A stretch of 35,583 nt of DNA from a virus. The stretch lies in IMG/VR virus record IMGVR_UViG_3300025000_000271, positions 1-35,583 of that record; one strand, 5' to 3'. Below, one piece after another: positions 12,793 through 35,379 of this stretch. Positions within the stretch are counted from its first letter, which is position 1; each line of letters opens with the position of its first letter. Under the pieces are notes generated by a model that was not told the DNA's origin, did no database searches, and was given only the letters and a program-made list of their open reading frames with translations. The translations under genes and the position numbers were made by a program.

Positions 12793-12798
12793 TAAACT

Positions 12799-13709: not shown

Positions 13710-13715
13710 TTAAAA

Positions 13716-14348: not shown

Positions 14349-14354
14349 AAATAA

Positions 14355-15236
14355 ATGGCACTTTCAAAAATTTATACGCTGAAAAAAGTAAGAAGTATTT
14401 TGCAGAGATGGCTTAACGAATTGGATAAATCGAAACTTGATCCGACTATGGTTGACGATTTAATAAATCTTGCTACTATTGACACAGCCGAAATATTAAA
14501 CGGCGCGAAGATTCCGGATTACGGCAAAACGGCAAATCTTTCAGACGCGGCTTCTTCACTTTCTACATCAATTGTAACAGGCGCTACTTATACAAACAGT
14601 ACGCGCAAAGTTACGAAAACAACGCACGGTTTTACCTCAGCGAGTATTGGAAGAAGAATTGCCGCTTGGGTTTCAACTACCCGAATTGTTGTTGCTGAAA
14701 TTGAATCAATTGTTGATGTAGATAATTTTATAACAACAAAAGCTCTTGGTGATGATGCTGCGGGGACTCTTAACTATGCCGTATTTTCTGCGCATTCCGG
14801 GCTTAATTTGGATTTATCAAGTCTCAAAATGGATAAGATAGAAAAACTTGTTGATTCTATAAATGGCGAAGTTCTGTTAACACCATCAAAACACTTTGAT
14901 AATTTGGACGGATTTGATGAGAAACAAAGCAACATATTCTATTATCAGCATGGCGAAACAATATTTTTATATCAGGGAACTTCTGTTGCTTCAATAGGAA
15001 CGCTTACGCTTCATTATTATGGCTATCCCGCGTTACCGGCGAGCGAAACAGATTATTTGGATATTAGAGACAAATATATTCCTTTGGTGATCGCAAAGGC
15101 GAAAAATTATTTATACGAGCATTTAGAAATGTCTGTGCCAAAAGAATTGTTATCGCAAATAGATCAAAAGACAGCTTCGATAAGAGGCTCCAATTTAGAG
15201 GAAAAGAAAGCAATTAAACAGGGTACTCATAACTAA
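14355..15236 (+). CDS. third connector-like structural protein with an inserted beta domain
   Basis: This 293-residue protein has N-terminal helices (1-50) and a C-terminal part (from about 165) with the HGETIFLYQGTSVASIGTLT strands and a final helical region (YIPLVIAKAKNYLYEHLEMS) similar in plan to the two proteins before it. Residues 60-150 are Ser/Thr/Ala-rich and strand-like, resembling an inserted Ig-like or head-fibre domain. It overlaps the nozzle gene by one base. A neck or tail-tubular role is likely. Confidence 0.6.
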   Translation: MALSKIYTLKKVRSILQRWLNELDKSKLDPTMVDDLINLATIDTAEILNGAKIPDYGKTANLSDAASSLSTSIVTGATYTNSTRKVTKTTHGFTSASIGRRIAAWVSTTRIVVAEIESIVDVDNFITTKALGDDAAGTLNYAVFSAHSGLNLDLSSLKMDKIEKLVDSINGEVLLTPSKHFDNLDGFDEKQSNIFYYQHGETIFLYQGTSVASIGTLTLHYYGYPALPASETDYLDIRDKYIPLVIAKAKNYLYEHLEMSVPKELLSQIDQKTASIRGSNLEEKKAIKQGTHN

Positions 15237-17767
15237 TGCGAAAATACCCGGTAGAAATATCAAATTTTAAGGGGATGCAGACTGGAATTGCTGACCCGGA
15301 TATTAACGCGATGGATTATCTTCAGAATGTTGATACGTTTGAGGAGCCCGGAATTATTACGCTTCGTCCGCCGTATGAATTAAAATACGCGGCGCCTACT
15401 TTACCAACAAATTTTGAGTTGATGGGTTATTTAGGCTTTGCTCATTTTAATGATAAGCAAGCTGTTCTAACCGGGCAAGAAGTAACTTTGGCAGTTTGCG
15501 CAGGCGCGTTGACGGCGATTGATAACGGCGGGAGTCCGATTGTTTCCAATGAGTTGGAAATTTTACTTTATTACATAAGACCGTACTGGAATCCAACTAC
15601 TCAAAAATGGGTTGATGAATGGCAGTGGCTGAATGATATTATTATCACAAAAGTAACTGTCGCGAGTGACGCTACTTATTCGAGTATGTTTAAAGTTTAC
15701 GGGGGAAGTTCTCACGGTTTGGGGGATGATTCTGTTGATAAATGGACTTGCATAAATTTAACGCAGAATATTATTTCTCAAGTAATTACTTCAAAGGCTG
15801 ATTCAGCGAATACAAGAATTAATCATACTCTTTATAGTTCTTCGTTTGTTGTTGATGATGTTATAATTTTTATGAAGAATTACATTCCGCTTACAGAACT
15901 TCAGGGAAGTTTCAATACGACTGATAAAGAAATTAATTTTCATAATATTCTGCATGATTTGAGAATAGGCTTTGGCGGTTACGAAAACCGTTTGGGTTTA
16001 GGAATTGGTTATAGAAAGAAATTTTTCAAGTGCAAAGAATTTGATTTTACAAACGTTCATTCTGATTTAACAGAAACAGCTTTAGAGAACTTTGCAACTA
16101 TTGACGATGTAATTTTAAACCCATATTCATTTATACCACAAAACGCTTACGGGCTTGATCTTGTTGCTGTTGCCGGGACTTTGGTTGCGGGGACTAAGTA
16201 TTTCCGTTTAACCGGGAAACTTGATGGATATGTTGACTGCCTACTTTATGAAGGAAGTTTGGAGGTTGACGGTACAAAAAATATTGAGATTTACCCTTAT
16301 ATAAAATTAGGGGCGCACAATAAAAGGATTACACATTTTTCTGTTTATTACGCTGAAGATGAAAATAGTAATTATTATAAAATAAAAGATTATGTATTAA
16401 CTGCCGACACAATAACAAAAAGCGAATGGAAAGTAACTGAGAACGGATTTTTATATTTAGATGGTGTTGTCCCAGAATTACATAGTGAAAGTAATGCAGT
16501 TAGTATTAATGCTGATATAAATTCTGTAGGAAGCTGGAAAAGATATAGCAGTTTGGGGCAATCATTCGCTGAGTTTGCGACAACATTATCAATAAATACA
16601 GGGTCAGGTGCCCCTTCTACCTATTATTTTAATATTTCATCAACTTTAGGATGGAGTTACTCAGTTGATGTAAGGACAGGATATGAGTTTCCAGTTTCAG
16701 GGCTGAAAAAAAATACAAAATATAAATTAACTGTTTATTTGAAAACAACGAAAAGCGGCGGCAGTACGGCATACGCTTTTTTTTCAAATGATGATAACAG
16801 GTCAACACTATATCCTCAGAGTGAATCTCAAATAGGCACCTCATTTGCTGAAAAAGTTTTTATAGTTGAAACAAACGATTCAGAATTACCAACAAAGATA
16901 GTAATTGCTATAAACTCAATTACGATTGAACAGTTGGCAATTGATAACTTTTCATTAAAACAAGAAGCCGGGAGTGAATTAACTCCAACTACCGACTTAG
17001 GTTCCGAAATATCCGCAGAGATGGGTTATGTACCTACTTTACAAATTGTAAGAAGTTGGGATATGTGTGTTGTCTTAAACTTCCGGGCGCATTATTTGAA
17101 TCCGTACATTGCGCAGGATGGACGTTTGGAAAATTTTATTCTTCGTTCAAATATTTCGGGTGGGAATATCTCCATGTATGACGCGGTTATTTTTGATAAC
17201 ACGATTGAGGCTGAAAGATTCCGGGGAGAAAAAACAATTGCAATAGCTCCTTTGGCAAACGATAATATTTTGCTGCTGAAAAATGACGGGATCGAGGAAA
17301 GAGATCCGGAAACGGGCAGAACATATTTTAACCAAACGGGCAAAGGGATAATTTCGCGGGAGAGTTTGGAGGTTATTGGCGGAATTCCGTTTTGGATGTC
17401 TTTAGAGGACGCGCACGCTTATGTAAACCAAGATATTAAAGACTGGATGAGTGATAGTATAAGAAAACTTTACAATCAAATTATCGGCGGGAAAAACGCG
17501 ATTGTTAGCATCCGTGATAAGTATAACCATTACAGAATTAGAATTTACGATGTAACAAACAGAACAGAATTTTTATTAACAAGCCGGGGATGGCACGTTC
17601 ATAAAAAAGAAGTATTTGCCTATAAGTACAGCAAAGGATTTAACAACCAAGTTTGGTTTATGGATATTGATGGGAATCTATATGTAATAACGGGACCAAA
17701 AGATTTAGATGCTGCGGATGAAGGAATGTTGTTGACAGACACTTTTGCAGACGAGGATGTTTCTTAA
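15236..17767 (+). CDS. tail nozzle-like protein with a carbohydrate-binding-like insertion
   Basis: The start (SNFKGMQTGIADPDINAMDY, 9-28) and the string of beta blades resemble podovirus nozzle/stabilisation proteins (P22 gp10 and T7 gp12 type), which plug the lower tail. The 843-residue length is near that of these proteins. Residues about 415-577 look different: NSVGSWKRYSSLG, a KYKLTVYLKTT strand and a final IEQLAIDNFSLKQE strand are typical of jelly-roll carbohydrate-binding domains. This may be an insertion that helps the tail bind host polysaccharide. The C-terminal part returns to blade-like strands (GIPFWMSLEDAHAYV). Assignment of the main body is by pattern. Confidence 0.65.
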   Translation: MRKYPVEISNFKGMQTGIADPDINAMDYLQNVDTFEEPGIITLRPPYELKYAAPTLPTNFELMGYLGFAHFNDKQAVLTGQEVTLAVCAGALTAIDNGGSPIVSNELEILLYYIRPYWNPTTQKWVDEWQWLNDIIITKVTVASDATYSSMFKVYGGSSHGLGDDSVDKWTCINLTQNIISQVITSKADSANTRINHTLYSSSFVVDDVIIFMKNYIPLTELQGSFNTTDKEINFHNILHDLRIGFGGYENRLGLGIGYRKKFFKCKEFDFTNVHSDLTETALENFATIDDVILNPYSFIPQNAYGLDLVAVAGTLVAGTKYFRLTGKLDGYVDCLLYEGSLEVDGTKNIEIYPYIKLGAHNKRITHFSVYYAEDENSNYYKIKDYVLTADTITKSEWKVTENGFLYLDGVVPELHSESNAVSINADINSVGSWKRYSSLGQSFAEFATTLSINTGSGAPSTYYFNISSTLGWSYSVDVRTGYEFPVSGLKKNTKYKLTVYLKTTKSGGSTAYAFFSNDDNRSTLYPQSESQIGTSFAEKVFIVETNDSELPTKIVIAINSITIEQLAIDNFSLKQEAGSELTPTTDLGSEISAEMGYVPTLQIVRSWDMCVVLNFRAHYLNPYIAQDGRLENFILRSNISGGNISMYDAVIFDNTIEAERFRGEKTIAIAPLANDNILLLKNDGIEERDPETGRTYFNQTGKGIISRESLEVIGGIPFWMSLEDAHAYVNQDIKDWMSDSIRKLYNQIIGGKNAIVSIRDKYNHYRIRIYDVTNRTEFLLTSRGWHVHKKEVFAYKYSKGFNNQVWFMDIDGNLYVITGPKDLDAADEGMLLTDTFADEDVS

Positions 17768-17794
17768 TTTCAAAAAATATTGTCCGGGGGGATA

Positions 17795-20700
17795 ATGAAA
17801 AAGTTTATTCTACTTTTCTTTTTAATAGCCGCTTTAATTACCGAAGCGCAAACATCATGCTACCAATACACTTACTTAAACAAATACGGCAGGGGAGTTG
17901 CGGGACAGTTGATACAAATTTTACCTTACGGGAATACCTACCCTACCGGGGCAATTACAGTACCGGATGTTTCGGGAACTCCGGGTTTGTATGAAAAATG
18001 TACTATTGCCGATGGTGATTATGACGTCTATTTGAACGGCTCAAAGAAATTCCAAAAGGTATGGATCGGCGCGGAGAGGCAAACTACTATTGCCGATAAT
18101 TATGAAACGAATTTCGACGGCAGTAATAAATTAATTTACGGCGCTCTTTCTCAAGCTGTTAAGGATAGTATTGCTAAAGCCGGGACTGTAGATAATGTAA
18201 CAATAGAAAAAGTTTCGGGGGTTCAGCAAGTAAAAGAGGGCGGAATTCAAGGGGAACATATTGCCGATGGCGAAGTTGGTATGCCGGAATTATCGCAAAC
18301 AGTAAAAGACGGTTTGGTTGGTGATGGATCGGGGAGGCTGCCGGATGGTGTAACCTTGCAAGTTACTGTTAATGGTACAGATACAACTTATTCTTTGCAT
18401 GATGATTACAAAGCTAAGATTGACGCGATTGTAAATATTATTGATTACTACCCAACGGCAATTAAAAGTAGCGCGCCGGGAAGCGCGACTGAAAGTCAAT
18501 CAACATCGGCATTAAATAACGCGAACAATGCTGTTAAAACGGCGGGCGGAGAAATTGTTTTGCCGCGCGGAACTTATAGCCTTAACGCAAATGTAACCAT
18601 TGACAGCCTTGTACATTTACGGGGTGATGGTGTCGGCACAAAAATATCTGTAGCAAGCGGTTATACTTTAACGATTAAAGGCTCGTTTGAGAATGTTGTT
18701 TTTGATACGACGGGGAATGTGGATTTGAGCGATGCTAAAATAGAAGCCGCTACGCCGGAAATGTTCGGATATATAAGTGGCAATTATGCTCATACACAAA
18801 TCAACAAAGCATTTGAAAGCGGTGCAAAAAAAATAAAATTATTACCTTATGCAACTTATTTAGTTAAGGATACAATAGAGGTGGCATCGAATACCATTTT
18901 TGAGGGTGATAATTCTATTATAAAAACCGATACAAGTATTTCTTCTTCTTTGGGTTACATTGTTTTGGTAAAGGGTGCTCAAAATGTAACAATAAGAGGG
19001 ATTGAAATTAATAATTTAGCAAATTATCCAAATGATTTAACTATTGCAAGAACATCTGGGACTTATAAAAGCATTGCCGGAATTGGAATATTAGGGAGTT
19101 CTGATATAACGATTGAGAACTGCAAAATAAATGGGGCGACTTGGGCGGGTTTGTTTATTAGACCAAATAGCTCTACCAATTCCAAAAGATGTAAAATAAT
19201 TAATAATAAATTCCAAAATGCAGGTTATTCTTTTACAGTAATACCAGTTTGGGGGTCTGCAAATTTGCCATTTGCAAACGATACTACGGATGGTTATGGT
19301 CACATTATAACCGGAAATACAATTACAAGAAGTCATGTTTATAAAAATTTAAAGCCGGGTTTTGAAGATGTGGCAAGTGTTGATGGCATAGCTTTAGATG
19401 TTGTTAGAAATTCTATAGTCTCAAACAACATAATAAGTGAAGTTGCGGGGATTGGAATTAGAATAGAAGAATCACAATCGGTTAGCGTTACTGCAAATAC
19501 AATCAGCAATGTTGGACAGGAAGGAATTACATTTTATAATTCTTCTTTTGATTGTGTGGCTATAGGAAATACAATTAATAAATTTGGCAGAATACCAGGA
19601 ATGATTAGCGTAAGGGAATACCCGGAAAATTCCGGCGTTTGGTATTATCCCACAGTCGAACATTATCCAAGTGACGGACATCCGCAACCGTATACGCCAG
19701 GAGATTCCGCCTTTGTCGAGTTCCCTTATTTTGTGACTGGTGATACAGCAAACATTCCGGTTTATGATAGAACAGAAATGTACGATGGGGTACATTATTT
19801 ATTGCCTTTTAGAGGTTATAGCGGAATTTCTGTTACAGCGTTATCACAAAGAATTATGATTATCGGGAATACGATAATTGGCGACACTTCAAAAACCGGC
19901 ACTAAATACAATTATGCTTCTGATTATGCAATAAGTATCGGGAATCATTCAGTAAACAGCTCATTTAGTTCTGATGCTGGTTATTGTGTTGTATTGGGGA
20001 ATTCTGCTTATTCTATTCGGAATTATAATAAACAAATATTCGCTCCTAAATATGAAGATTCTTTGTCCGTCTCTGTACTAAAGGGAATAAATTATTCTTC
20101 AAAAATATATCACAACAACGCATCGGTTTATAATAAATTTAAGACACATCATTATGAAGATACTTTAACGGTTTATAACGATTTATTTTTAGGTTCAGGG
20201 AAAACTCGCATTAGAGTTGTAGGTGACAGTTTATATATACTTAACAATTACAACCAAAATGTATTAGTAATGAGTATGGCTTCGGCAGATGCTCAAATGA
20301 GTTTCCCATTATCAAAAAAAATAGGTTTTGGAACACCAACCCCGAATTGGGATTACGAATTTTTTAGCGACACTCAGGCAGACGTTTATATACATACAAA
20401 CGATGAAACTGCGGGGAAAATTGCCGCTTTAAGATTTGGCACGGTTAATTCGGCTACAACAAGAGCAAAAGGAGCAATTTTTTTCGAGGCAGACGGGACT
20501 GGCAACGGACGTGGTAAAATGCGTTTTGCCGTTGATGGTGCTGCTGATGGCGGGGATGCTTCAACAAGTGATGTTGGAATGACCCTTGATGGTTTGCGTA
20601 ATTTGGTGATTGGAACTTTATCTGTTGGGGCGAATTCTCAAAAAGTTTTAGGAATAAGCGCTGGGAATGCTCCAACAACTGCCCCGGCAGATATGATTCA

Positions 20701-21304
20701 GCTTTGGGTATCTGATAGCTCAGCCGGTAACGCAGAGTTATACGTTATGGACGAAGCCGGACATGTGACACAACTGTCTGAACACGCAAGTGATGCGCCG
20801 GAATGGTTTTATGACAGCGATGATAGAGTAGGGAAAACATACAACATCTTCACCGGGATAATAACGTACACAAATTATGACAGAGACCAAAGATTAAGCC
20901 AGCTTGAAAGGTTAAAAAAACCTTTACCAAAAGATAGCTTGCAACTTATAACAATTTATACCGAAACATTTATTGAGTACAATACACGGACGGGGCAGCA
21001 TTTGCAGCGTACAACTTGGGAATCTAATCAACAGTGGAATTTACAGCAACGAGAAAAACAGATTGCTGAGTACGAAGCGGATAGTTTGAAATTTGTAAAA
21101 GAAAAATCAGATTTTGAAAAGGTATGGAATGCCAAACGTGAAAAAAGAAGAATGAGTAATTCCGGCGAACGTGTAATAATTAACGAGCTTAATGAAATAG
21201 AAAGCAGAGAGCCAAAATTTGAACAACAGCGTCCGGCAAAGTTTAAGAAAAAAGATATGCCGAAAGCATTAAAGAGGGCTTTGAAGAAAATTAATGCCAA
21301 CTAA
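17795..21304 (+). CDS. tailspike / receptor-binding protein with beta-helix and signal peptide
   Basis: ATG 17795 behind a GGGGGG site gives 1169 residues. Residues 1-18 form a classic signal peptide (cleavage TEA-Q). A small beta domain (about 20-110) and a linker follow, then a pectate-lyase-like right-handed beta-helix from about 240 to 700 (turns such as TIRGIEINN, ITIENCKINGATWAGLFI, VSVTANTISNVGQEGITF), typical of phage tailspikes that bind or cleave surface polysaccharide. About residues 840-1000 form a fibre-type domain (GFGTPTPNWDYEFF, NAPTTAPADMIQLWV). The C terminus is a long, strongly basic helical region. No catalytic residues can be assigned. The signal peptide is odd for a virion protein made in the cytoplasm. 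Confidence 0.75.
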   Translation: MKKFILLFFLIAALITEAQTSCYQYTYLNKYGRGVAGQLIQILPYGNTYPTGAITVPDVSGTPGLYEKCTIADGDYDVYLNGSKKFQKVWIGAERQTTIADNYETNFDGSNKLIYGALSQAVKDSIAKAGTVDNVTIEKVSGVQQVKEGGIQGEHIADGEVGMPELSQTVKDGLVGDGSGRLPDGVTLQVTVNGTDTTYSLHDDYKAKIDAIVNIIDYYPTAIKSSAPGSATESQSTSALNNANNAVKTAGGEIVLPRGTYSLNANVTIDSLVHLRGDGVGTKISVASGYTLTIKGSFENVVFDTTGNVDLSDAKIEAATPEMFGYISGNYAHTQINKAFESGAKKIKLLPYATYLVKDTIEVASNTIFEGDNSIIKTDTSISSSLGYIVLVKGAQNVTIRGIEINNLANYPNDLTIARTSGTYKSIAGIGILGSSDITIENCKINGATWAGLFIRPNSSTNSKRCKIINNKFQNAGYSFTVIPVWGSANLPFANDTTDGYGHIITGNTITRSHVYKNLKPGFEDVASVDGIALDVVRNSIVSNNIISEVAGIGIRIEESQSVSVTANTISNVGQEGITFYNSSFDCVAIGNTINKFGRIPGMISVREYPENSGVWYYPTVEHYPSDGHPQPYTPGDSAFVEFPYFVTGDTANIPVYDRTEMYDGVHYLLPFRGYSGISVTALSQRIMIIGNTIIGDTSKTGTKYNYASDYAISIGNHSVNSSFSSDAGYCVVLGNSAYSIRNYNKQIFAPKYEDSLSVSVLKGINYSSKIYHNNASVYNKFKTHHYEDTLTVYNDLFLGSGKTRIRVVGDSLYILNNYNQNVLVMSMASADAQMSFPLSKKIGFGTPTPNWDYEFFSDTQADVYIHTNDETAGKIAALRFGTVNSATTRAKGAIFFEADGTGNGRGKMRFAVDGAADGGDASTSDVGMTLDGLRNLVIGTLSVGANSQKVLGISAGNAPTTAPADMIQLWVSDSSAGNAELYVMDEAGHVTQLSEHASDAPEWFYDSDDRVGKTYNIFTGIITYTNYDRDQRLSQLERLKKPLPKDSLQLITIYTETFIEYNTRTGQHLQRTTWESNQQWNLQQREKQIAEYEADSLKFVKEKSDFEKVWNAKREKRRMSNSGERVIINELNEIESREPKFEQQRPAKFKKKDMPKALKRALKKINAN

Positions 21305-24209: not shown

Positions 24210-25184
24210 ATGGGCGCAATAGCAAAATCACTTGAAAGAGCTGGATATTTAAAACCGGTTGGCGACGCGGTTCAAAACTATTTTCTGAAGAAACAGCAGG
24301 AAGAAGATTTCAAAAAATTGGCTGACGCTTACGCTTCTTCGCAAAATAGAATTGGTGAACTGAACACTGGATTTGACAGGAACGATATAGCTGAAATGGA
24401 ATTTAATGTACCAAACACAGCTATTCCTTTCCAAAAAGATATTAAAAATGTTGGCCAAATGTCTGCGGCTGAAGATATAAATAATTCTACAAACGCGCCG
24501 ATGACTGATTATGTGCTTGGTGACGTTCTCCCGCCGGAGGAGAGGTATAAACGCTCTTCGGCTGAGGTAAGTAATTTTGCCGCACAAGGTTTGTTAAATA
24601 AAAATGTTGATACCCAAAGATTGGGCGGACTTACAGAAGTACTTTCTGCTTTAGCTAACGCGGGGAAACCGAAACCGATTGAGTATTTTAATCTTGGACC
24701 GGGTGATGAAAGATTTATGCGTGACCCGAACAGTGGAGAAACAAAAAGCGTCGCCAAAAGGGAGAAAGAAAAAACTTTTGATATTGAGGGCAGTTTTGAA
24801 AATGATGATACCGGGACTATTTGGACTTTTGATAAAAATATAGGGAAGATGATTGATACCGGGATAAAGTTTGAAAGAACAAAAAACAAAACTGAAGAAA
24901 AGAAAGCAGAAGAAGATAAAACGAATCAAGAAATTTATAATAATATTTTGGCTTCCCCCTGGGTGAAATCATCTGACTTGATTAATCAAGGGCTAATGGA
25001 TAAAAAAGATACTTCAATAGGTAAGTATGGCGGCGCTTATGTTGTAAGAGGTAAAGACGGGAACGCAAGATTAATTTTTACAAATGAGATGCTCGAAAAT
25101 TACGCAAAAGGTCAAGTCGCAAAAGCCCCAAACAAATGGGATAGAAAAAAAAATGATGATAACGATCCTTTGGGAATAAGATAA
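24210..25184 (+). CDS. probable second internal virion (ejection) protein
   Basis: This 324-residue hydrophilic protein starts with an amphipathic helix (AIAKSLERAGYLKPVGDAVQ) and a helical Lys/Glu/Gln-rich stretch, continues through asparagine-rich segments, and ends with a strongly charged region (RTKNKTEEKKAEEDKTNQEI) and an Asp/Lys tail. It has a GAG-type ribosome site and shares one base with the start of the giant gene after it. Order and composition fit the middle ejection protein of a podovirus. No enzymatic domain is visible. Confidence 0.55.
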   Translation: MGAIAKSLERAGYLKPVGDAVQNYFLKKQQEEDFKKLADAYASSQNRIGELNTGFDRNDIAEMEFNVPNTAIPFQKDIKNVGQMSAAEDINNSTNAPMTDYVLGDVLPPEERYKRSSAEVSNFAAQGLLNKNVDTQRLGGLTEVLSALANAGKPKPIEYFNLGPGDERFMRDPNSGETKSVAKREKEKTFDIEGSFENDDTGTIWTFDKNIGKMIDTGIKFERTKNKTEEKKAEEDKTNQEIYNNILASPWVKSSDLINQGLMDKKDTSIGKYGGAYVVRGKDGNARLIFTNEMLENYAKGQVAKAPNKWDRKKNDDNDPLGIR

Positions 25185-28100
25185 TGCCTGTACAGATTTT
25201 ACAAAATTTTAGAAAAAAATATCCTCAATATAATGATTTGGATGACTCTACAATTGCCGATAGATTAGCAAAAAAATATCCAAAGGCTTATTCTGAATTA
25301 CCAAATTTAGTAGTTCAAGATATAAGTCCAACTAATAAACCCAGACTAACTAATGCTGAACAATTTAATCCTGATGGCGCTGGTTACGATTATGAATCTG
25401 CTAAAAAGTATGGGATTGAACCCGATGAAACCGGGCATTATCCTTCAAGAGTTTCGGAAACCGGACAAATCTTAAAAGGGAAACAACATCCTACTTTTAA
25501 TAAAACCATTCAAGGCGAAGAAAAGTTAGGATATAAAATTGCAAAAAATGATAAAGACGGAAGATATTATTCTTATAAAGAACCCGCAGTCCCCACACCG
25601 ATCCCAGACATCACCGCGCTTGATAATTTTATGGCTCCGCCTGAAGTAAAACAACCCGGACAAGAGCAGTTTGAAGGACTTACAAAAAACGGTATTCCCG
25701 AAGATGTAGCCGGATATATGGCGTTAAAGAATATTCTTGAGCCGATACAAAAAGGTGTCCCGAAAGAAATGACAGATCCGCAAAGAGTAATCCCAAAAGA
25801 AGAAAACTTAAATCCCCGCGCAATAATCGGGCAGAAAGTAATTGAAGGTTTAAAAAATGCCGTAACTTCTTTTGGAGAGGGCGGAAGAAGAACATTGCAA
25901 GGTGTTAAAGGTCTTTTGGACGATCCTACAGATTTGGGAAGTCGTGTCGAAACCGTAGTTGGCGGACTTGAAACCGGAATAAGCGCGATACCTGGAGTAG
26001 TTGGATTAAATATTGTGTCCCCTTCTGTTGATATGGCGGCGAGAAGTTTTGCGAAAAATTTTAATTTGGACGAAGAAAAAGCTTCGGGAATAGTTCAAAG
26101 AGCCTTGCCTTTTGTTTTTGGAAAATGGGTTGGTGTTGGCAGTTTATCTGCCGAAGCGATAACCGAAGGGATTAAAGATTCCGGTGTGTTGAACGGTTTA
26201 AATTATCAAGATCAGAAAACCGTAAATGATTTGATACATAACGCTGTGTTTTTCGCAGTTGCGATGGGCGGCAAAAAAACTGCTGAAGCTACACGGGACG
26301 CCGTGGCTCGCAAAACTTACAAGCCGGTGGTAAAAGATATCACTTCCGCCGAGATGAAGGCTGAGACGGGGCTTACGCGCGAAGGAGAACAGATTTTTAG
26401 AGACAGACTGAACGATCCGGCGTTATCGGCTAATGAAAAACAAACTACTTTAGATTTTTTGAAGAGGAAAGGAATTACCCCGGAAAGTTTAGGGGCTAAC
26501 GCTGAAGTAATTCGTAAACCTATTGGAGTGATTCCAGAAAAAAATATTTTACCGGGGGAAGAAAAGATATTCACAGAAAAACCAAAAGTTGAAAAGACAA
26601 AAACCCAACAAGCGGGCGATGTTCTCAAAATAGAGAATCCAGAAGTATTAAAAGAATTTGGAGAACTCCCTAAGTTTGATAGAGTTTCTACAGAAAAAGA
26701 ATTGAGTTTAACGGGGTTGAAAGAACTTGACGATTTGACTATTCAGAAAATTAGTGAAAATAAAAATGTTGTTGAAAAAATCCTTGACTTAAAAGATTAC
26801 AGAAAAACTGAAAAAGCCGCAAGCACTTTGCGGGAGATTAAAAAAGAAGTTGATAATTTACGCAGTCAAGGAATCAGCGCAAGTTATGAAAACGAGCAGT
26901 TGAAAATTAACGGAAAGAAAGTTTATCCATATACCACAACTCAACCGATTCAGCTTGATAAAATAGAGATAGAACCAACTGAAGCAAAAACGCCGTTTAA
27001 AAAATTACCGGCAAATGAAGTTGACAGACAGACTTTAATGGCTCAGATGTTTGCAGACAAACGTGTACTTACTCCGGAACTAAATAGATTATTGCCTGAA
27101 GGGTTTGGACAGAAGAAACTTGAGAAAGGAACTCAAGATATTATTGACGACGCGGGAAAAGAGCAGAGCAAAGAGGCTCAAATTGTTCGTGACTTTGTGA
27201 AAGCAGTTGAAACAGAATTCCAACAGCAAGGCGGAATAAAGCTGAAAGACAACAACACAATTACCCGTGACGATTTGGAAGAAATGATTGACGGCTATTC
27301 GGCGGAAAGGGATAAAACCTTTGAAGAAGGAGATACAAGTTTTGAGTTTGGGGAGAATGTCCGGAAGGAGTCAGAAGTCAGAAGTCAGAAGTCAGAAGAA
27401 CAATATAACGAGGTTGAGAAAACTAATACAGAAAAAAAATATCGGAATTTTATTGAACGCGCACTTCAAAGAGATATTGACGAAAGCAAAGGGCAAGAAA
27501 TTTTAGACCAGTTGACCAATGATAAAGTTAGTCCTCAAAGTGTTGCTAATAAATTTTGGAAAGAAACTTATTCTAATCTTGACGATAACCAAAAGTTAAA
27601 TTTTCAAAAAATGATTTTAAAGAATAGAGGTGTGGAAGTAGCAAAAACCGACGCTGAAATAATTCAGCAAGGTTTAGAAATGGCTGATTATGGTAATGAC
27701 GCGGAATATTTAGAAGGGACAGAGAGAGGTGATATTGCTTTAATGGCTGTAGCGAATGATTTGGTGACAAAAAATAATAATAAAAAATTGGAGTTACCTG
27801 AACCAACTACAAAAACGAAACCCACAACCGAGCGCACGGCAGCCGGTGATCAGTTTACTTTTGGTAAAGAAGTAAAACCAAGTTTCCCGACAAAAGCTAT
27901 GTACGAAGGGAAAGCAGACCGTTCGGAAGAAACTCCGTTATTCTCACAGCCGAAAGAGGATAAGGCGCAGGAGAGTTTGTTTGAGGGGAAGAAAGAAATA
28001 ACAGAACTTGAAAATAAATTGAATGCGATTGCCCGGAAGTTTGATTTGGTAACAAGCGAAAAAATGACTGAAAAGCTTACTACTGAATACAATAAAATTG

Positions 28101-31100
28101 AAGCTGAATTATCTAAGCTAAAGGACAAAAACATTGACAATAAGAAAGAAGAAGCTTTTGGATTTAAGCTTATTGATAAAGATGGTAATGAATTTATCCC
28201 AATAAAAAAAGAAGGGAATCAATACCGTGCTTTAGATAAAGATGGAAAGGAAGTAATCAGAAATATTAAAGACCCCCAATATCCCAATCGTGAAGGTGAC
28301 AAAATTGTAAGGGATTTTTCTCAAAATGATAAAACTATCGAAGAAATTATAAATTCTAAGATTGGACAAAAACCGTCAAGACAAAGTTCGTCAGAAAATG
28401 ATATTGAAGAATTTTCAGAAAAAGTTTCACTAAACGATTATATAGACAAAACCATTGAAGAAGTTTCTAAGTCTGAAAAATTAAGAAAACAAAAAGATAT
28501 TGTTGCAACCGATAAGTTTTCTTCTTCTTTACCTGGCGTTAATATATTTGAAAAAATATTTTCAAGTCAACCGGCACAAAACATAAAAACGCCAACGGGA
28601 AATACAAAATTTGATAACCAATTTAAGTTAAGACAAAATGATTTTTTTGAAAGTAAAAGAAGCAAAATGTCAAAAGCTTTTCAAGAACTAAAAAGCGCAA
28701 TGACATATCTCGAGAAAATAAAAAAAGATGAAACGCTTTCAAAATCACAAAAAGATTATATAACCCGCGAAATTGATGTGTTAAGAAAAGATTTAACGGC
28801 AAATATCAGAGACAAGAGAAATAAAATTTTATACGCTGTTTTTGGGGATATTGAGGGGGACACCGCAAGCATCCAGAAAAGAGTTGCCGACTTAGGACAA
28901 TTTGCAAGTGCTAAAAGACTTGAAGCTATTTATAGCGATCCAGAATTAGTTGATAAACAGATTAATCTCGGTTATACGAAAGAAGAAGCAAAGGCAATTG
29001 TCGAATCTTTACAAAACGATTTACCAAAAGAAGTATTGCGTTCTTATGATAGAATGAGAAAAATACTTGATGATTACGGTGAATTTTTAGCTTTGGAAGG
29101 TATTGTCGAAAAAACAACAGATAATTATTTCCCTTTTAAGGTACTTGAATTTATTAATGATTTTGGATTAGCAACAGGGCAGAAAAGAGTACAAAAAATA
29201 ATTCCCGGAAGTTCGAAACAGTTTAAGGGAACAGGCAAAGAATATGATATAGACGCTTTAAGTATTCTGTCTGAATATTTTACTCAAAATGAAAGAGCAA
29301 GAGCATATAATAAATTTGAAAAAAATGTGGTAGAGAAATTTCATAATGCTGACAAAATTGATGAGAACAATAAACCTTTACCGGGATATGACGAATATTA
29401 TTTTGACCCAAGACGAGTATTTTTTAAAATGTTTGCAGTTACAGAAACTCAATTAAATAAGTTATTAAGAGAACCGGATTTGTTTGAGGATGCCGGCAAT
29501 ATACAAAGCGTTGTCCGTGAAATTTTTGCGATGGGCCGGAAAAAAGGGAAAAGATATATTATTCCTAAGGGGTTAGCTGAAACTTTGTATGATGTCTATG
29601 GCAATGTATTGCCTAAAAATATTCCATATATAAGCAATGCCACTCAATGGTGGAAAAGAAATATGGTCGGCAGAATTGGTTTATTTATTAACATGTATCA
29701 TGCAAGAAATATGAGAACCGATGTTTCTAAAGTCTTTAACATACATCCCCAATCTTTCCAATATCTTCCTGAAGTTGAAAATTTTTTAAGAACAAAAACT
29801 AACGTTCCTCAAAAAGTGTGGTTAGCAACAATTGATTTGGTAGGAATGAAAACTCCGATTAAAAAAGCGATGAGACTTGGAAAGAAAAAAAGATTATTAA
29901 CAAATAATGAACTACAAAAATATTGGGACGAAGGAATTGAAGCTGATACTTTTCAAGGACAAATATGGACTGAAGGATTAGGTATTTCCGAAAGAGAATT
30001 AAAAACTAAATTTATGAAAGACAGCGTAAAAAGAAGATTTGGCGAAGTAAAAGAAGCAATTGGAATAACTTCAGTCCTGGATAAATTTGATGATGTTGCA
30101 CGTTTGAGAGAAGCTAAATTAAGATTTGCGACTTATAGTTATTTAAGGGGCATTAAAGGATTGTCAAAAGAAGCTGCTCACGAAGAAGTCGGGAAAACAT
30201 TAATTAACTATAATCATTTTACACCTTTTGAAAAGAAATGGTTCGTGAATGGGTTTATCCCGTTTTATTCGTTTAGAAAAGGTAATCTTGAAACCACTAT
30301 ACAGCAATTTAAAGAAGGGAATAAAAGACAGCGCGCCTTTATAATTGGGACAATGCTCACTTCTACTTTGGGTGTAAGTTTATATAATTATTTATACGCG
30401 CCTGATGATGAAGAAAAATTACAGAATGACCCGAATAAAAAATATATTGCTGATAATTTTCATTTAGCGACTCCGTACTTTGATGATAATGGGAATAGAA
30501 TTTATCTTTATGACCAAAATTGGAATGATGATATTTCAAGAATTTTTAATATTAACGGAGGGATTGCAACCGCAAGAAAAGTAATAAATAATCAATTATC
30601 AGTACCCGAAGCGATAGGAGAATTTGGGTGGAACTTAACAAAAGGCAATTTTGACGATATTATTCAGAATATGACTCCATTATTATCCACACCTTTTGAA
30701 TATGCTACTAACAGAAATTTTTATTATGGTTTCCCAATTTACAAAGAAGATGATCCAGCATTGGAGAAATTCACAAAATCATTATTATATGGCTCAGGTG
30801 TAGCTTCAAGAAATTTTTCCACAATGCGCGGATTGTTGGTAGGTCGGCAAGACGCTACAATGAAAGGATTAAGGTTAAGCGGTTTGCCAATAACTTCTGT
30901 TGATTTAAGTAGAAGCGAAAACAATTTTGAAGCATTTAACGATAGACTATTAAAAGAAAAATTGCAAGAAATAAGAGATGTTGAAAAAGATTTGAGATTA
31001 TTAAAAGCTGAGGCGATAAAAACAAATGATTACAATTCTGATAAATCAAAGCTATACAGACAGACAAAAGATCAATTAGACCAAATGAAAGAAGATTCTG

Positions 31101-31204
31101 ATGCTTGGCAACAAAAATTAGAGCTTCAAAAAGAAAAAAGAAATAAAGAAAAAGAAATTCTTGGTACTGATAACAAAAGAACAACTCGCAGAGCGGGGAG
31201 ATAA
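25184..31204 (+). CDS. giant internal virion / ejection protein (2006 residues)
   Basis: This is the largest gene. The N terminus (1-40) has a YPQYNDLDDSTIADRLAKKY motif, followed by DYESAKKYGIEPDETGHYPS...KGKQHPTF (69-105), a module common near the start of large phage ejection proteins. Residues about 230-370 hold long Gly/Ala/Val-rich stretches that could enter a membrane. A long Lys/Glu-rich coiled region follows (about 440-1500). The last 500 residues contain FTPFEKKWFVNGFIPFYSFR and a hydrophobic segment (about 1718-1740), reminiscent of large polyvalent-protein-associated domains. No lytic transglycosylase motif is evident. It probably forms or lines the DNA-ejection conduit, as the giant internal proteins of T7-like and P22-like phages do. 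Confidence 0.7.
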   Translation: MPVQILQNFRKKYPQYNDLDDSTIADRLAKKYPKAYSELPNLVVQDISPTNKPRLTNAEQFNPDGAGYDYESAKKYGIEPDETGHYPSRVSETGQILKGKQHPTFNKTIQGEEKLGYKIAKNDKDGRYYSYKEPAVPTPIPDITALDNFMAPPEVKQPGQEQFEGLTKNGIPEDVAGYMALKNILEPIQKGVPKEMTDPQRVIPKEENLNPRAIIGQKVIEGLKNAVTSFGEGGRRTLQGVKGLLDDPTDLGSRVETVVGGLETGISAIPGVVGLNIVSPSVDMAARSFAKNFNLDEEKASGIVQRALPFVFGKWVGVGSLSAEAITEGIKDSGVLNGLNYQDQKTVNDLIHNAVFFAVAMGGKKTAEATRDAVARKTYKPVVKDITSAEMKAETGLTREGEQIFRDRLNDPALSANEKQTTLDFLKRKGITPESLGANAEVIRKPIGVIPEKNILPGEEKIFTEKPKVEKTKTQQAGDVLKIENPEVLKEFGELPKFDRVSTEKELSLTGLKELDDLTIQKISENKNVVEKILDLKDYRKTEKAASTLREIKKEVDNLRSQGISASYENEQLKINGKKVYPYTTTQPIQLDKIEIEPTEAKTPFKKLPANEVDRQTLMAQMFADKRVLTPELNRLLPEGFGQKKLEKGTQDIIDDAGKEQSKEAQIVRDFVKAVETEFQQQGGIKLKDNNTITRDDLEEMIDGYSAERDKTFEEGDTSFEFGENVRKESEVRSQKSEEQYNEVEKTNTEKKYRNFIERALQRDIDESKGQEILDQLTNDKVSPQSVANKFWKETYSNLDDNQKLNFQKMILKNRGVEVAKTDAEIIQQGLEMADYGNDAEYLEGTERGDIALMAVANDLVTKNNNKKLELPEPTTKTKPTTERTAAGDQFTFGKEVKPSFPTKAMYEGKADRSEETPLFSQPKEDKAQESLFEGKKEITELENKLNAIARKFDLVTSEKMTEKLTTEYNKIEAELSKLKDKNIDNKKEEAFGFKLIDKDGNEFIPIKKEGNQYRALDKDGKEVIRNIKDPQYPNREGDKIVRDFSQNDKTIEEIINSKIGQKPSRQSSSENDIEEFSEKVSLNDYIDKTIEEVSKSEKLRKQKDIVATDKFSSSLPGVNIFEKIFSSQPAQNIKTPTGNTKFDNQFKLRQNDFFESKRSKMSKAFQELKSAMTYLEKIKKDETLSKSQKDYITREIDVLRKDLTANIRDKRNKILYAVFGDIEGDTASIQKRVADLGQFASAKRLEAIYSDPELVDKQINLGYTKEEAKAIVESLQNDLPKEVLRSYDRMRKILDDYGEFLALEGIVEKTTDNYFPFKVLEFINDFGLATGQKRVQKIIPGSSKQFKGTGKEYDIDALSILSEYFTQNERARAYNKFEKNVVEKFHNADKIDENNKPLPGYDEYYFDPRRVFFKMFAVTETQLNKLLREPDLFEDAGNIQSVVREIFAMGRKKGKRYIIPKGLAETLYDVYGNVLPKNIPYISNATQWWKRNMVGRIGLFINMYHARNMRTDVSKVFNIHPQSFQYLPEVENFLRTKTNVPQKVWLATIDLVGMKTPIKKAMRLGKKKRLLTNNELQKYWDEGIEADTFQGQIWTEGLGISERELKTKFMKDSVKRRFGEVKEAIGITSVLDKFDDVARLREAKLRFATYSYLRGIKGLSKEAAHEEVGKTLINYNHFTPFEKKWFVNGFIPFYSFRKGNLETTIQQFKEGNKRQRAFIIGTMLTSTLGVSLYNYLYAPDDEEKLQNDPNKKYIADNFHLATPYFDDNGNRIYLYDQNWNDDISRIFNINGGIATARKVINNQLSVPEAIGEFGWNLTKGNFDDIIQNMTPLLSTPFEYATNRNFYYGFPIYKEDDPALEKFTKSLLYGSGVASRNFSTMRGLLVGRQDATMKGLRLSGLPITSVDLSRSENNFEAFNDRLLKEKLQEIRDVEKDLRLLKAEAIKTNDYNSDKSKLYRQTKDQLDQMKEDSDAWQQKLELQKEKRNKEKEILGTDNKRTTRRAGR
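27369..27396 (+). repeat. four tandem AGTCAGA heptamers inside the giant gene
   Basis: AGTCAGA is repeated four times without interruption and stays in frame, encoding an SEVRSQKSEE-like stretch around residue 729-738. Such heptamers are known as spacer repeats in Bacteroidota-group genomes. A slippage event here would shift the frame of the last two thirds of the protein. Confidence 0.8.
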
Positions 31205-31267: not shown

Positions 31268-31618
31268 ATGGTACAACATATAAAAAAAACCGGGGAAGAT
31301 AATTTCGTGGTGACATTAACAAAAACAAAATTGATGATTTCGGTTGCAATAATGCTAATCAGTTTTATCGGCTCTCCGCTACTTGCAAATTTTATTGGTA
31401 ATGTTTTCTGGAAAGATAACCTGGAAAAAAGAATTATTGAAGTTGATGAAAAAACCAAGTCCAACACAGCAGAAATTGAAAAGCTTAAAGAAGCTGACAG
31501 AAATTACGACGTGCTTTCGGTAGAGGTTCAAAACTTGATTAGAGAACTTCGGGAAATTAAGCCGCAGTTATCAGAGTTTAACAAACAGATAATTGATATT
31601 TACAAACAAAAAAGATAG
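31268..31618 (+). CDS. membrane-anchored coiled-coil protein of the lysis cassette
   Basis: This 116-residue protein has one hydrophobic segment (about 22-46, MISVAIMLISFIGSPLLANF) followed by a long charged coiled coil (50-115). It opens the lysis cassette, before the holin-like protein. The plan resembles XhlA-type holin-associated proteins or an inner-membrane spanin component. Neither family is certain. The ribosome site is weak. Confidence 0.6.
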   Translation: MVQHIKKTGEDNFVVTLTKTKLMISVAIMLISFIGSPLLANFIGNVFWKDNLEKRIIEVDEKTKSNTAEIEKLKEADRNYDVLSVEVQNLIRELREIKPQLSEFNKQIIDIYKQKR

Positions 31619-31629
31619 GGGGGTGAGTT

Positions 31630-31896
31630 ATGAAATTCTTCCAATTTTTAGAAAAAGCATTAAGCGAATCAAACGGGGAACCTTCGGGAATGAGAGTGCA
31701 AGTATTTTATCTTGTAGTCATATTAGTAGCTGTAATAGCAGTCGGGTTTATTTATGTAGTATGGAATCATCCTGATATAGTTATTCTTTATTTAACAACT
31801 ATTGTGACTTTAATTGCAGTGGCTCTTGGATTTAAAAAATGGCAAAAGAGTGATGAAGTAAAGGAAGAAACTAAACCGGAAGGAAAAACGGGATAA
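31630..31896 (+). CDS. holin (two transmembrane segments)
   Basis: This 88-residue protein has two hydrophobic stretches (about 26-46, YLVVILVAVIAVGFIYVVW, and 50-69) and a charged C-terminal tail (KWQKSDEVKEETKPEGKTG). Size, topology, the charged tail and position just before the endolysin gene are typical of holins, which open the inner membrane at lysis. A GGGGGTGAG ribosome site precedes the ATG. Holin families are too diverse to assign one. Confidence 0.75.
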   Translation: MKFFQFLEKALSESNGEPSGMRVQVFYLVVILVAVIAVGFIYVVWNHPDIVILYLTTIVTLIAVALGFKKWQKSDEVKEETKPEGKTG

Positions 31897-31900
31897 GAAA

Positions 31901-32338
31901 ATGGAAATATCTGGAAACGGTTTAAAAATTATTAAAGAGTTTGAGGGGCTTAAATTCAAATCTTATTTGTGCCCGGCTGGTGTTCTTACTATAGGTTACG
32001 GGCATACCGGGAAAGATGTGAAGCCGAACCAAGAAATATCTATTGAAGAAGCAGAATCATTATTAATACAAGATGCCGTTAAGTTTGAAAACGCAGTGAA
32101 TAGATTAGTGAAAGTTGAGATAAACCAAAATCAATTTGACGCGCTTGTTTCTTTCACGTATAATCTTGGAGAGGGGAATTTAGGAAGATCCACTTTGCTC
32201 AAAAAAATTAACGAGAAAGATTTTGCCGGAGCCGCGCCGGAATTTATGAATTGGACAAAAGCGGGCGGGAAAGTTTTAGACGGACTTAAGAGACGGCGTA
32301 AAAGTGAAAAAGAGTTATTTGAAAAGGTGGTTTTATGA
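31901..32338 (+). CDS. endolysin, GH24 lysozyme (P22/P1 type)
   Basis: This 145-residue protein cleaves the beta-1,4 bond of peptidoglycan. The catalytic triad pattern Glu-8x-Cys-5x-Thr is present (E15, C24, T30) in the segment GLKFKSYLCPAGVLTIGYGHT, and SFTYNLGEGNLGRSTLLKKI is the conserved middle of the family. The cysteine in place of aspartate occurs in P22 and P1-type lysozymes. No signal peptide or SAR segment is seen, so export should depend on the holin. It overlaps the next gene by four bases. Confidence 0.93.
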   Translation: MEISGNGLKIIKEFEGLKFKSYLCPAGVLTIGYGHTGKDVKPNQEISIEEAESLLIQDAVKFENAVNRLVKVEINQNQFDALVSFTYNLGEGNLGRSTLLKKINEKDFAGAAPEFMNWTKAGGKVLDGLKRRRKSEKELFEKVVL

Positions 32339-32928
32339 CAGATGCAATTAAATATTCTATTGTAGGTGTGCTCTTAGCTGTCCTGATCTTCTTTGCCGGG
32401 AGATGGACAAAAGATTGTACAGAAGGAAAGCCGAATATTATTTTAAATGATACCTTAGGAGTTCAACAAAATAATTTCTTGCCTGGAGTAAAGCCTGACA
32501 GCGGGAAAATTGTTGCTAATACAAAAAAAGAAAATGTTGATAGTATTTCCGCATACTGGAATAAATTTTGGGCGGACTCTTTAGGCGATATGTACGGACG
32601 AGGTTCTTTCGAAGTTGTAACAAGAAAAGAGGACAAGTACGGTACGCGCGAATATCATTTTGTAAGTAGAACTCCGCTTGACCCCGAAGGTACATGGATA
32701 ATTGACGAGAATTTGAATTTACCTGTAATATATCCCAAATCAACAATAGGACTTTTTGCCGGGATTGAAAACAGATTTGATAGAAACGTAAATTTATTTG
32801 CCGGGCTGAAATACTATGTGATTGACACAAAACATTTCCAACTATACGCAAAGGGCAGTGTGAACTATCAAATGCTTGATAAAAAGTTTGATGGAAGAAT
32901 CGCTTTACAAACAGAACTAAAATTATAG
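32335..32928 (+). CDS. spanin-like protein with membrane anchor and beta-barrel-like C terminus
   Basis: This 197-residue protein starts with an inner-membrane anchor (about 6-22, YSIVGVLLAVLIFFAGRW), followed by a periplasmic Asn/Lys/Ser-rich spacer. Residues about 140-197 contain alternating aromatic and polar residues (GLFAGIENRF, NLFAGLKYYVI, FQLYAKGSVNYQML, RIALQTELKL) like outer-membrane strands. It directly follows the endolysin (ATGA overlap), the usual spanin place. A single protein touching both membranes could do the work of an Rz/Rz1 pair. There is no lipobox. The barrel reading is from the residue pattern. Confidence 0.6.
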   Translation: MTDAIKYSIVGVLLAVLIFFAGRWTKDCTEGKPNIILNDTLGVQQNNFLPGVKPDSGKIVANTKKENVDSISAYWNKFWADSLGDMYGRGSFEVVTRKEDKYGTREYHFVSRTPLDPEGTWIIDENLNLPVIYPKSTIGLFAGIENRFDRNVNLFAGLKYYVIDTKHFQLYAKGSVNYQMLDKKFDGRIALQTELKL

Positions 32929-32934
32929 GTTTTT

Positions 32935-33390
32935 ATGAATTGGGAGTTGGAATTTCTATTTATTCTCACATCGGTTTATTATTTTTTTGAAGCCAAAATT
33001 CACTTTATAATTTTTCATAAAAATAAATTTGCTGATAAAGACGGCAGCGTTCATAAAGAACTTGCAATAATATCGGCGCTTACAAATTTGGGGACAGCTT
33101 TACCGTTTATTCTCAAATTTTATAACTCTGGCTTTACTTATCCGCGACTTTTACTTATTTTGTTATTGCTTGCAGTTTTTTTCGCACTTATGAGAGCGTA
33201 TTTTCACGACGGTTTTTATAATCTTTTCAGAAAAGAAAATTTCTTTTTTACAGGAAGTGATCAGAAATATACAAAGTGGTACGATTTTGATGCAGTATGG
33301 ATTACGCTTGAAAAAAATGGGATTGAAGCATGGAAAGCAAAAACTATAATTTTATTGATTGTTGTAATAGTTTATAAAATAGTATCTTAA
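32935..33390 (+). CDS. four-helix membrane protein after the lysis cassette
   Basis: This 151-residue protein has hydrophobic segments at about 5-25, 44-60, 69-88 and 134-151. The loops are basic and aromatic. It is the last gene of the late operon, 6 bases after the spanin-like gene and before a terminator. No family recognised. It may be a late membrane protein, for example a lysis regulator, or a superinfection-exclusion protein; the sequence does not decide. Confidence 0.6.
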   Translation: MNWELEFLFILTSVYYFFEAKIHFIIFHKNKFADKDGSVHKELAIISALTNLGTALPFILKFYNSGFTYPRLLLILLLLAVFFALMRAYFHDGFYNLFRKENFFFTGSDQKYTKWYDFDAVWITLEKNGIEAWKAKTIILLIVVIVYKIVS

Positions 33391-33405
33391 CGGTCTGCTA
33401 ATTGA

Positions 33406-33440
33406 AACCGGGAGCCTTAGAAAAGCTCCGGTTTTTTATT
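33406..33440 (+). terminator. rho-independent terminator of the late operon
   Basis: AACCGGGAGC (33406-33415) pairs with GCTCCGGTT (33425-33433), with one bulged G and a 9-base loop, and continues into TTTTTTATTTATT. It lies 15 bases after the stop of the last late gene and just before the attachment region. Confidence 0.85.
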
Positions 33441-33454
33441 TATTGTAACCAATT

Positions 33455-33684
33455 TTGCAACCATTGTTTTATAACTAATTGTAATATAAGGGATTAGATA
33501 TATGACCATTTTAATGGCATTCAAGAGGTCAGGGGTTCGATCCCCCTTAACTCCACAATAAAACTTCGTAATTGGCTTGAATTTAGGCTTTTCTAAATCT
33601 TATTTCCTTCAAATTTGTTGCAGTTTCCTATAAGTTCCGTTATTCTCCGTTATGTTCCGTCAAATAATGCAACCTTTTTGCAAC
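33455..33684. promoter_or_regulatory. candidate integrase arm-binding sites around attP
   Basis: TTGCAACC (33455-33462) lies left of the core, and TGCAACC (33668-33674) and TTGCAAC (33678-33684) lie right of it; GTTGCA (33617-33622) is an inverted copy. A second repeat, CCGT in units starting 10 bp apart (33637, 33647, 33657; TTCCGTTATT, CTCCGTTATG, TTCCGTCAAA), lies next to the integrase. Repeats on both sides of a tRNA core match the layout of arm-type integrase or excisionase sites. The 33390-33683 interval holds no gene apart from the tRNA fragment. Confidence 0.5.
33514..33555 (+). other. attP: attP core: 3' half of a tRNA-Ala(GGC) gene
   Basis: The segment has an ATGGCAT anticodon loop (GGC at 33516-33518), the 3' anticodon stem strand TCAAG, variable region AGGTC, a perfect T-arm (AGGGG, loop TTCGATC, CCCCT), acceptor strand TAACTCC and discriminator A. 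The 5' half is missing: no CTTGA or GGAGTTA lies upstream. Temperate phages that use tRNA genes carry exactly such a 3' end. Upstream and downstream are phage genes (membrane protein; integrase), so it is attP rather than a prophage border. The host target would be tRNA-Ala(GGC). Confidence 0.85.
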
Positions 33685-34778
33685 TACTTTTTTCGTTTCT
33701 TTGACAGGGCTTGCGCTGTTTGGGAGAGCGTGTTCAGGTGCATTCGTGCGTAGCTTTTTTCTGTTGTTTTAATATTTCGGTGGCGTAATAGTTTTTTTAC
33801 TGAGTATATGTCGGCGCCGTTGCTTACAAGATCGCTGGCAAACGTGCGGCGGATGTCATGCAGTGAATAGCGGCGGCTGAGTTTGTTATATAACGGATGT
33901 TTTTTATTTGTGAAGCTTCTTTTTACGTGTTTTTCAAAAAACCTTGCGCCGTCTGTGGATTTGTAAATAAATACTTTGCCCGATTCTTTTTTAAATGATT
34001 TCAAAAATATTTCCAAATCTTTGTATAGCGGAAAATCATCAATTCTTTTTCCTTTTATGTTTTGAAACCGGATCGCTTTGTTTTGAAAATCTATTTGTTC
34101 CCAAAGAAGCGCGCAGGCTTCGCCGGTGCGGAATCCCGTCATATATAGGAACTTAAACATTCTGTATTGATTTATGTCGTGTTTTTCAAAAAAATCTAGA
34201 AGCAGTTTTATTTCCGGCTGGGGGATTACAACAATTTCTTTTTCTTCAATTGAGAGTCCTTTTTCCACGGGAATAATATTATCGAACGCTTTGTTTTTCT
34301 GCAACCATATAAAGAATATACGGAGATGAATTAAATATGAAATGACTGAATTCCGGGAGAGTTTCTTTTCTCCATTTGTCCAATATTCACTCAGTTTATC
34401 AACGTGCGTTTTGTCAATTTCCCGAACAAAAATATCTTCACCAAAAAGTTTTATAAAATCGTTTTTTATTACTTTGAAAACGTCTTTATAGCTTGCTGAT
34501 GTTTTTTTCTTCGAGTCTAAAAAATCGTCAAAGGCTTTTTTGAACGGGTAATGACTTTTTAAAAGTGTGGTTACTTTGCTGAACTTATAATCATATTCTT
34601 TCTTCAGTTCTTTGGCAATGCGCTGATCGTCCCGGTTTTTGGGGCGGAGAGGCTCTCCTGTTGCGGGATTTTTGAGAGGGATAGCTTTTCTCTTAGGTTT
34701 GCCGGTGACCGGGTTTTGTTCGTTCTTATCAAAAAAGTAGTAGTTGATAATGTTGTTTTTTGGTACTAAGGAGCCCAT
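33684..34778 (-). CDS. int: tyrosine recombinase (integrase)
   Basis: This 364-residue integrase carries out recombination between attP and the host tRNA gene. The catalytic set is visible: R217 (TGFRTGEA), a candidate lysine at 242/244, H307-x-x-R310 (HDIRRTF), H333 (LLRHRNI) and Y343 (TTEKSYA). The N-terminal part (1-90) is basic and should bind the arm sites, and residues about 90-165 form the SAM-like core-binding domain. It lies 128 bp from the attP core and its stop falls within one of the repeats. It is cotranscribed with the two genes upstream (7-base gap). Length is normal. Confidence 0.95.
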   Translation of the reverse strand: MGSLVPKNNIINYYFFDKNEQNPVTGKPKRKAIPLKNPATGEPLRPKNRDDQRIAKELKKEYDYKFSKVTTLLKSHYPFKKAFDDFLDSKKKTSASYKDVFKVIKNDFIKLFGEDIFVREIDKTHVDKLSEYWTNGEKKLSRNSVISYLIHLRIFFIWLQKNKAFDNIIPVEKGLSIEEKEIVVIPQPEIKLLLDFFEKHDINQYRMFKFLYMTGFRTGEACALLWEQIDFQNKAIRFQNIKGKRIDDFPLYKDLEIFLKSFKKESGKVFIYKSTDGARFFEKHVKRSFTNKKHPLYNKLSRRYSLHDIRRTFASDLVSNGADIYSVKKLLRHRNIKTTEKSYARMHLNTLSQTAQALSKKRKK

Positions 34779-34785: not shown

Positions 34786-35379
34786 CTATAATTTTATTAA
34801 TAATCCGGATAGTAAACAGAATGTTGAAATTTCTTGGTCTTTTTTTGTTGTTAAGTTGTAATCCGCTTCAAAAAGCAGAGAAAAAAGGGTGTCAAGTTCT
34901 ATGTTTAATCCAATTGAGGACCTGAACAAATTAAAATTTTCTTTATTCCCGTTAATTATTATTCTATAATTCTCATTATCTAAATTAACTTCATCAGAAG
35001 TCCAGAAAGTTATTCCATACTTTATAGAGAAATAAGGAGAGAAAATACTTTTGTTTATAAGATAAAATTTAAGTCCCGAGCAAATAGATAAAGAGCTTGT
35101 TTCCCCGCCGGAAATTTCAAAATTATTATTTTGGGAACCTGAATCTTTATAAAATTTATTATCGTTAAAAATAAATTGAGTATATGAAATTTCAAACGGT
35201 ACGCTAACGCCTTTTATAATGTTGTGCTCTAGCTCAGGAGCGACAGTAAAGCCCGTTCGCCAATAAGTTAAAAAAGATTGCGGGGTTGATGGTTTTGTCA
35301 CTCCAAATTTTATTGCTATAATATTGCCTTGCGCCAATAGTGGCATTGCGAGTAAAATAAAAGCCGCGAATATTTTCAC
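34786..35379 (-). CDS. secreted outer-membrane beta-barrel-like protein
   Basis: GTG 35379 starts a 197-residue protein sharing one base with the previous stop codon (TAGTG). Residues 1-16 are a signal peptide with an LLA-Q site. The rest alternates polar and hydrophobic residues in strand-length units (FSPYFSIKYGITFW, FNLFRSSIGLNIELD, FSLLFEADYNLTT) and ends in LLIKL, typical of small outer-membrane barrels. It directly precedes the integrase in the minus operon and would lie near one prophage end after integration. It may alter the lysogen's surface. Family not identified. Confidence 0.7.
   Translation of the reverse strand: MKIFAAFILLAMPLLAQGNIIAIKFGVTKPSTPQSFLTYWRTGFTVAPELEHNIIKGVSVPFEISYTQFIFNDNKFYKDSGSQNNNFEISGGETSSLSICSGLKFYLINKSIFSPYFSIKYGITFWTSDEVNLDNENYRIIINGNKENFNLFRSSIGLNIELDTLFSLLFEADYNLTTKKDQEISTFCLLSGLLIKL

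Follow-up and report, generated by a model that had tools for sequence, protein, structure and literature searches.

The 3′ half of a tRNA-Ala(GGC) gene that stands between the lysis genes and the integrase gene of a virus contig is very probably the phage attachment site (attP) of a temperate podovirus-like phage. The contig is IMG/VR record IMGVR_UViG_3300025000_000271, classed linear, and the whole of its 35,583 nucleotides is referred to here as the window. Temperate phages commonly carry a copy of a tRNA gene end beside the integrase gene, which enables them to insert into the tRNA gene without breaking it. The site in the window belongs to this known kind of tRNA-targeting attP, in a little-studied host group, and it leaves the knowledge of phage integration unchanged. 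It indicates that the phage is probably temperate and names the gene in which it would insert, tRNA-Ala(GGC); in addition, it provides a 43-bp sequence with which the host and lysogens can be sought, and an integrase/attP pair for a group of bacteria that has received little study.

The tRNA-Ala(GGC) 3′ half

The likeness to cognate tRNA-Ala genes begins at 33513 (A31 of the anticodon stem), one base to the left of the start in an earlier sequence-only reading of this DNA, which had rightly recognized the half but placed it at 33514-33555. The anticodon GGC lies in a 7-nt anticodon loop (ATGGCAT), and is followed by the 3′ strand of the anticodon stem (TCAAG), a variable loop (AGGTC), a 5-bp T stem without mispairs (AGGGG/CCCCT) around the loop TTCGATC, and the 3′ strand of the acceptor stem (TAACTCC) with the discriminator A. 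The T at position 70 in the acceptor strand fits the G3-U70 identity pair of alanine. This is the sole good T-arm in the window, as defined by five pairs and a TTCRA loop. The 41-mer at 33515-33555 (+), TGGCATTCAAGAGGTCAGGGGTTCGATCCCCCTTAACTCCA, occurs only once in the window when up to three mismatches are allowed, and it is matched in none of 100 shuffles.

What stands in the place of the 5′ half? The phage bases at the 5′ strand of the anticodon stem are TTTTA, while CTTGA would be required to pair with TCAAG. No D-arm or 5′ acceptor half was found near the 3′ half, and neither ARAGORN nor Rfam detected a complete tRNA in the window. A D-arm consensus search of the window gave a single match with three mismatches at 20716, which is inside the tail-spike ORF and 13 kb off, and 10 of the 100 shuffles in the control also gave a match. 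The earlier claim that tRNA-Ala(GGC) is present as a 3′ half only is borne out by the loop, the T stem, the acceptor strand and the shuffles; ARAGORN, Rfam and the D-arm search agree with it that the 5′ half is absent from the window.

Layout of the probable attachment site

On the left of the half, head, tail and lysis genes assigned by Pfam and PHROG all run rightward (Table 1). On the right, the gene for a tyrosine integrase converges on the half, 128 nt from its 3′ end. The half has phage genes on both sides, as had been noted from the letters. Those to the left are lysis genes and that to the right is the integrase gene, which is the arrangement of an excised phage circle. The catalytic residues R217, R310, H333 and Y343 of the integrase are invariant in an alignment of seven sequences. 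A bare half with lysis genes at its 5′ side and an integrase gene at its 3′ side is therefore either attP or a tandem-prophage junction, which would look identical. The assignment to attP, already made in the sequence-only reading, is supported by the conserved integrase residues, by relatives of the integrase that adjoin tRNA genes and by the order of lysis genes, half and integrase.

Between the core and the integrase gene, three tandem repeats of about 10 bp (GTTCCGTTAT/TCTCCGTTAT/GTTCCGTCAA) occupy 33634-33663, and the motif TGCAAC occurs at 33617 (-), 33668 and 33679. TGCAAC/GTTGCA occurs 4 times in 33391-33690, compared with 21 times in the whole window. The repeats and motifs may be arm sites of the integrase, as weak candidates picked after looking.

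The lysis region (31268-33390) consists of small membrane ORFs, the lysozyme gene and two ORFs without a PHROG match, with a weak hint of an Rz-like spanin at 31268-31618. A 2006-aa ORF at 25184-31204 has no Pfam or PHROG match; from its place after the tail genes, it probably encodes a large virion protein or an ejected protein.

Table 1. Features of the window that bear on the putative attachment site.
Feature	Position	Strand	Evidence
Terminase	4550-6193	+	
Portal	6342-8351	+	
Capsid	10431-11900	+	
Tail-spike-like	17780-21304	+	
Phage lysozyme/endolysin, lysis end left of attP	31901..32338	+	Pfam PF00959, E 3.5e-50; PHROG 7
Two small late-end ORFs from lysozyme to attP, function not assigned	32335..33390	+	No PHROG match
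Putative attP arm on the left, containing a single TGCAAC motif (33456)	33391..33512	.	Sequence; predicted function
Probable attP core: tRNA-Ala(GGC) 3′ half, from the anticodon stem-loop as far as discriminator A73	33513..33555	+	Sequence; unique in window; near-matches in genomes are tRNA-Ala(GGC)
Candidate arm region of the integrase, from core to integrase gene	33556..33683	.	Sequence, k-mer count; weak
Tyrosine integrase, 364 aa	33684..34778	-	Pfam PF00589, E 2.9e-25; PHROG 1 integrase, E 1.3e-45
Outer-membrane beta-barrel-like ORF beyond the integrase	34786..35379	-	Weak Pfam PF13505, below curated cut-off

Gene order and contig ends

A second viral contig, L002 (IMGVR_UViG_3300025009_000417), is 100% identical to the window over 723-16190 and 1-96 and extends 3561 bases further to the left, where it carries more early genes and no obvious host gene. 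None of the other viral contigs carries the right end of the window. The resulting order (lysis genes, tRNA half, integrase gene, a gap, early genes, replication, packaging) is that expected for the circular map of a temperate phage. Both contig ends cut genes, the right one cutting an ORF, and no terminal direct repeat, which would point to a complete circular genome, was found at them. The free or circularly permuted genome proposed earlier is likely from the layout, but with a linear contig that has no repeats at its ends and truncated genes at both of them, we infer it from gene order.

Relatives of the integrase at tRNA genes

The highest identity to the window integrase was found for an integrase of genome G653, at 40% over residues 178-347, which correspond to the catalytic domain. 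On contig C39 of this genome the integrase gene converges on an intact tRNA-Ala(GGC) gene. On contig C8 the same integrase DNA (2348 identical bases) runs up to a bare 3′ half, where the contig stops, and contig C7 has a third copy of the half after other DNA. A 46-bp core, TGAATGGCATTC...CTCCAC, is common to the three contigs from the anticodon stem on. Judged from the sequences, the arrangement on C39 appears to be the integrated form that the window predicts, at the same tRNA. The element (L091, L092, L095) thus shares with the window the tRNA, the convergent geometry and a core starting from the anticodon stem. It differs in that its integrase is only about 40% identical, in the catalytic domain only, in that the integrase frame is short (about 175 aa), and in that no phage genes were recognizable in the 5 kb of the element examined. 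The G653 integrase may be decayed.

The association with tRNA genes holds for the distant relatives of the integrase in Ignavibacteria-type genomes in general. In all 14 of those examined, a tRNA T-arm lies at most 140 nt from the 3′ end, or stop codon, of the integrase gene; the same pattern occurs 14 times elsewhere in the 52 kb, and the chance of 14 out of 14 is about 3e-18. Many of these integrase genes adjoin bare tRNA 3′ halves. The tRNA is convergent with the integrase gene, as in the window, at five loci (L057, Asn; L077, Val; L079, Lys; L078 and L080, Ala), and is intact in all of them except L078, which stops at a contig end. At ten other loci (L055, L056, L074, L075, L076, L081, L082, L058, L059 and L024) a tRNA 3′ half on the same strand lies 25-132 nt past the integrase 3′ end, a geometry opposite to the convergent one of the window. 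In a tree of the integrases the two orientations were mixed and did not form two clades. Intact genes give Ala, Val, Lys and Asn as targets, and our reading of the tRNA halves suggests Pro, Met, Thr, Arg and Asp as well. Tentatively, and with some doubt prevailing, this integrase family might have switched tRNA targets repeatedly in Ignavibacteria-type hosts, keeping within 140 nt of the core and in two opposite orientations. If so, target change in tyrosine integrases could be studied on this family as a natural series.

A prophage of 23.5 kb in genome G385 (contig C2, 262662-286265; L060, L061) is located between an intact tRNA-Ala(GGC) gene and a displaced copy of its 3′ half, the two sharing a repeated core of 52 bp; therefore, phages of this clade use this gene. 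From their length, order and sequence, we read its ORFs as terminase-, portal- and capsid-like. In having an intact tRNA-Ala(GGC) gene and a 3′ half it resembles the integrated form predicted for the window phage, but its integrase is different and sits by the displaced half, not by the intact tRNA. It is a second, independent user of the tRNA-Ala(GGC) gene.

The host

The sequence-only reading had predicted a host target and proposed that genomes be searched for a tRNA-Ala(GGC) gene with the same last 42 bases and for prophages having the integrase beside this gene. The predicted target stands as a tRNA-Ala(GGC) gene ending in ...TTAACTCCA, but the exact 42-mer has no match in 84,980 species genomes, and the exact 38-mer none in the viral contigs. 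No prophage of the window phage was found, and the nearest counterpart is the G653 integrase beside an intact tRNA-Ala(GGC) gene. A degenerate form of the fragment matched seven intact tRNA-Ala(GGC) genes of mixed phyla, including one from Ignavibacteria (L015). This genome served as the centre for samples of 395 genomes of the phylum and 391 of the class, which are even draws from larger groups, so that absence from them is weak evidence. The phylum sample contained 26 near-matches with up to three mismatches, 25 of which are intact tRNA-Ala(GGC) genes by ARAGORN and the other a displaced half. The closest, with one mismatch, were in four genomes of the class Ignavibacteria. We infer that the host is probably Ignavibacteria-like.

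The search of the viral contigs gave no close relatives of the integrase, and its matches in the phage database are distant, the 20 best having 23-29% identity. Two contigs related through the terminase (L003, L005) have only packaging or lysozyme genes in common with the window, and no match to its integrase.

Alternative explanations

Could the half be the end of an integrated prophage? For a single prophage, attL would include the 5′ half, whose absence excludes this reading, and attR is unlikely because the integrase gene stands where host DNA is expected. A junction of two tandem prophages, or of a prophage and an island, in the same tRNA gene would have a local sequence layout identical to that of attP; in that case the half would be the attR of the phage on the left, and the integrase would be part of the next element. 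Such arrays are known (a set of 3919 islands includes 125 arrays with at least two members; PMC4383910), and the ORFs to the right of the integrase have no phage (PHROG) match. They are, however, uncommon a priori; the G+C content is alike on either side (0.345 and 0.341), no second set of phage genes was seen, and L002 runs leftwards into early genes without an obvious host gene, as a single circular map would. We consider a tandem junction improbable, and the window is likely to represent free phage rather than a tandem lysogen.

It is still less probable, to the point of being very hard to maintain, that everything from 33556 to the end is host chromosome, with an ordinary prophage end and an unrelated integrase nearby. 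A host origin is conceivable for the beta-barrel ORF at 34786, but a search of 390 genomes from the group, run without a positive control, gave no match to it, and the integrase gene and the half, 128 nt apart, are arranged in a way that is also found among relatives of the integrase. The beta-barrel ORF is perhaps a lysogenic conversion gene, or host-derived. As for the half itself, some phages carry tRNA genes, and it might be a decayed one or be transcribed as an RNA of its own. We give this almost no credence: the likeness starts at the anticodon stem-loop, which is a usual crossover site, the relatives of the adjoining integrase are all by tRNA genes, and no promoter-like site was found near the half. 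A functional phage tRNA was rejected from the ARAGORN and Rfam results. An attP remains the preferred reading of the site.

Proposed mechanism of integration

The integrase would pair the 43-bp 3′ half of tRNA-Ala(GGC) with its identical counterpart in the host gene (attB), and the crossover would take place in or beside the anticodon loop. The tRNA-Ala 5′ half of the host (..GAGCGCTTGAATGGC) would then be joined to the integrase side, where the phage copy would complete the tRNA gene (attL), and the host's own 3′ half would be displaced to the far end of the prophage, next to the lysis genes (attR). An attP centred on the anticodon was reportedly described by Williams in 2002 for temperate phages and islands that target tRNA genes. 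In the Islander collection, attP carries a fragment of the tRNA gene and integration restores the gene; 3′ fragments were found in 3760 of 3919 islands, and 2083 are centred on the anticodon (PMC4383910). tRNA fragments arising from integration are widespread (PMC9897764). The window is like class A of Islander (PMC4383910) in having a 3′ tRNA fragment in attP, an adjoining tyrosine integrase and identity from the anticodon stem-loop, and in that the gene would be restored on integration; it differs in its target, tRNA-Ala(GGC) with the acceptor end ...TTAACTCCA, and in being known from the phage side alone.

A possible cassette swap at the left end

The window and L002 differ at 97-722 of the window and 1591-4180 of L002, and are otherwise 100% identical. 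The segment of the window carries a Dam methylase and is replaced by a MazG-like gene in L002. Both breakpoints are at TAACG. L002 has four single-gene units, each followed by a TAACGGGGTTGC-RM-ATAA-like site (1878, 2940, 3654 and 4182), a motif found in no other viral contig. The other cassette sites fold no better than shuffles, and window 85-150 folds as an attC-like hairpin with z of about -2.1 to -2.4. The difference is possibly a swap of gene cassettes. Clusters of attC cassettes (CALINs) with methyltransferases have been reported in phages, and the region resembles them (PMC9892861).
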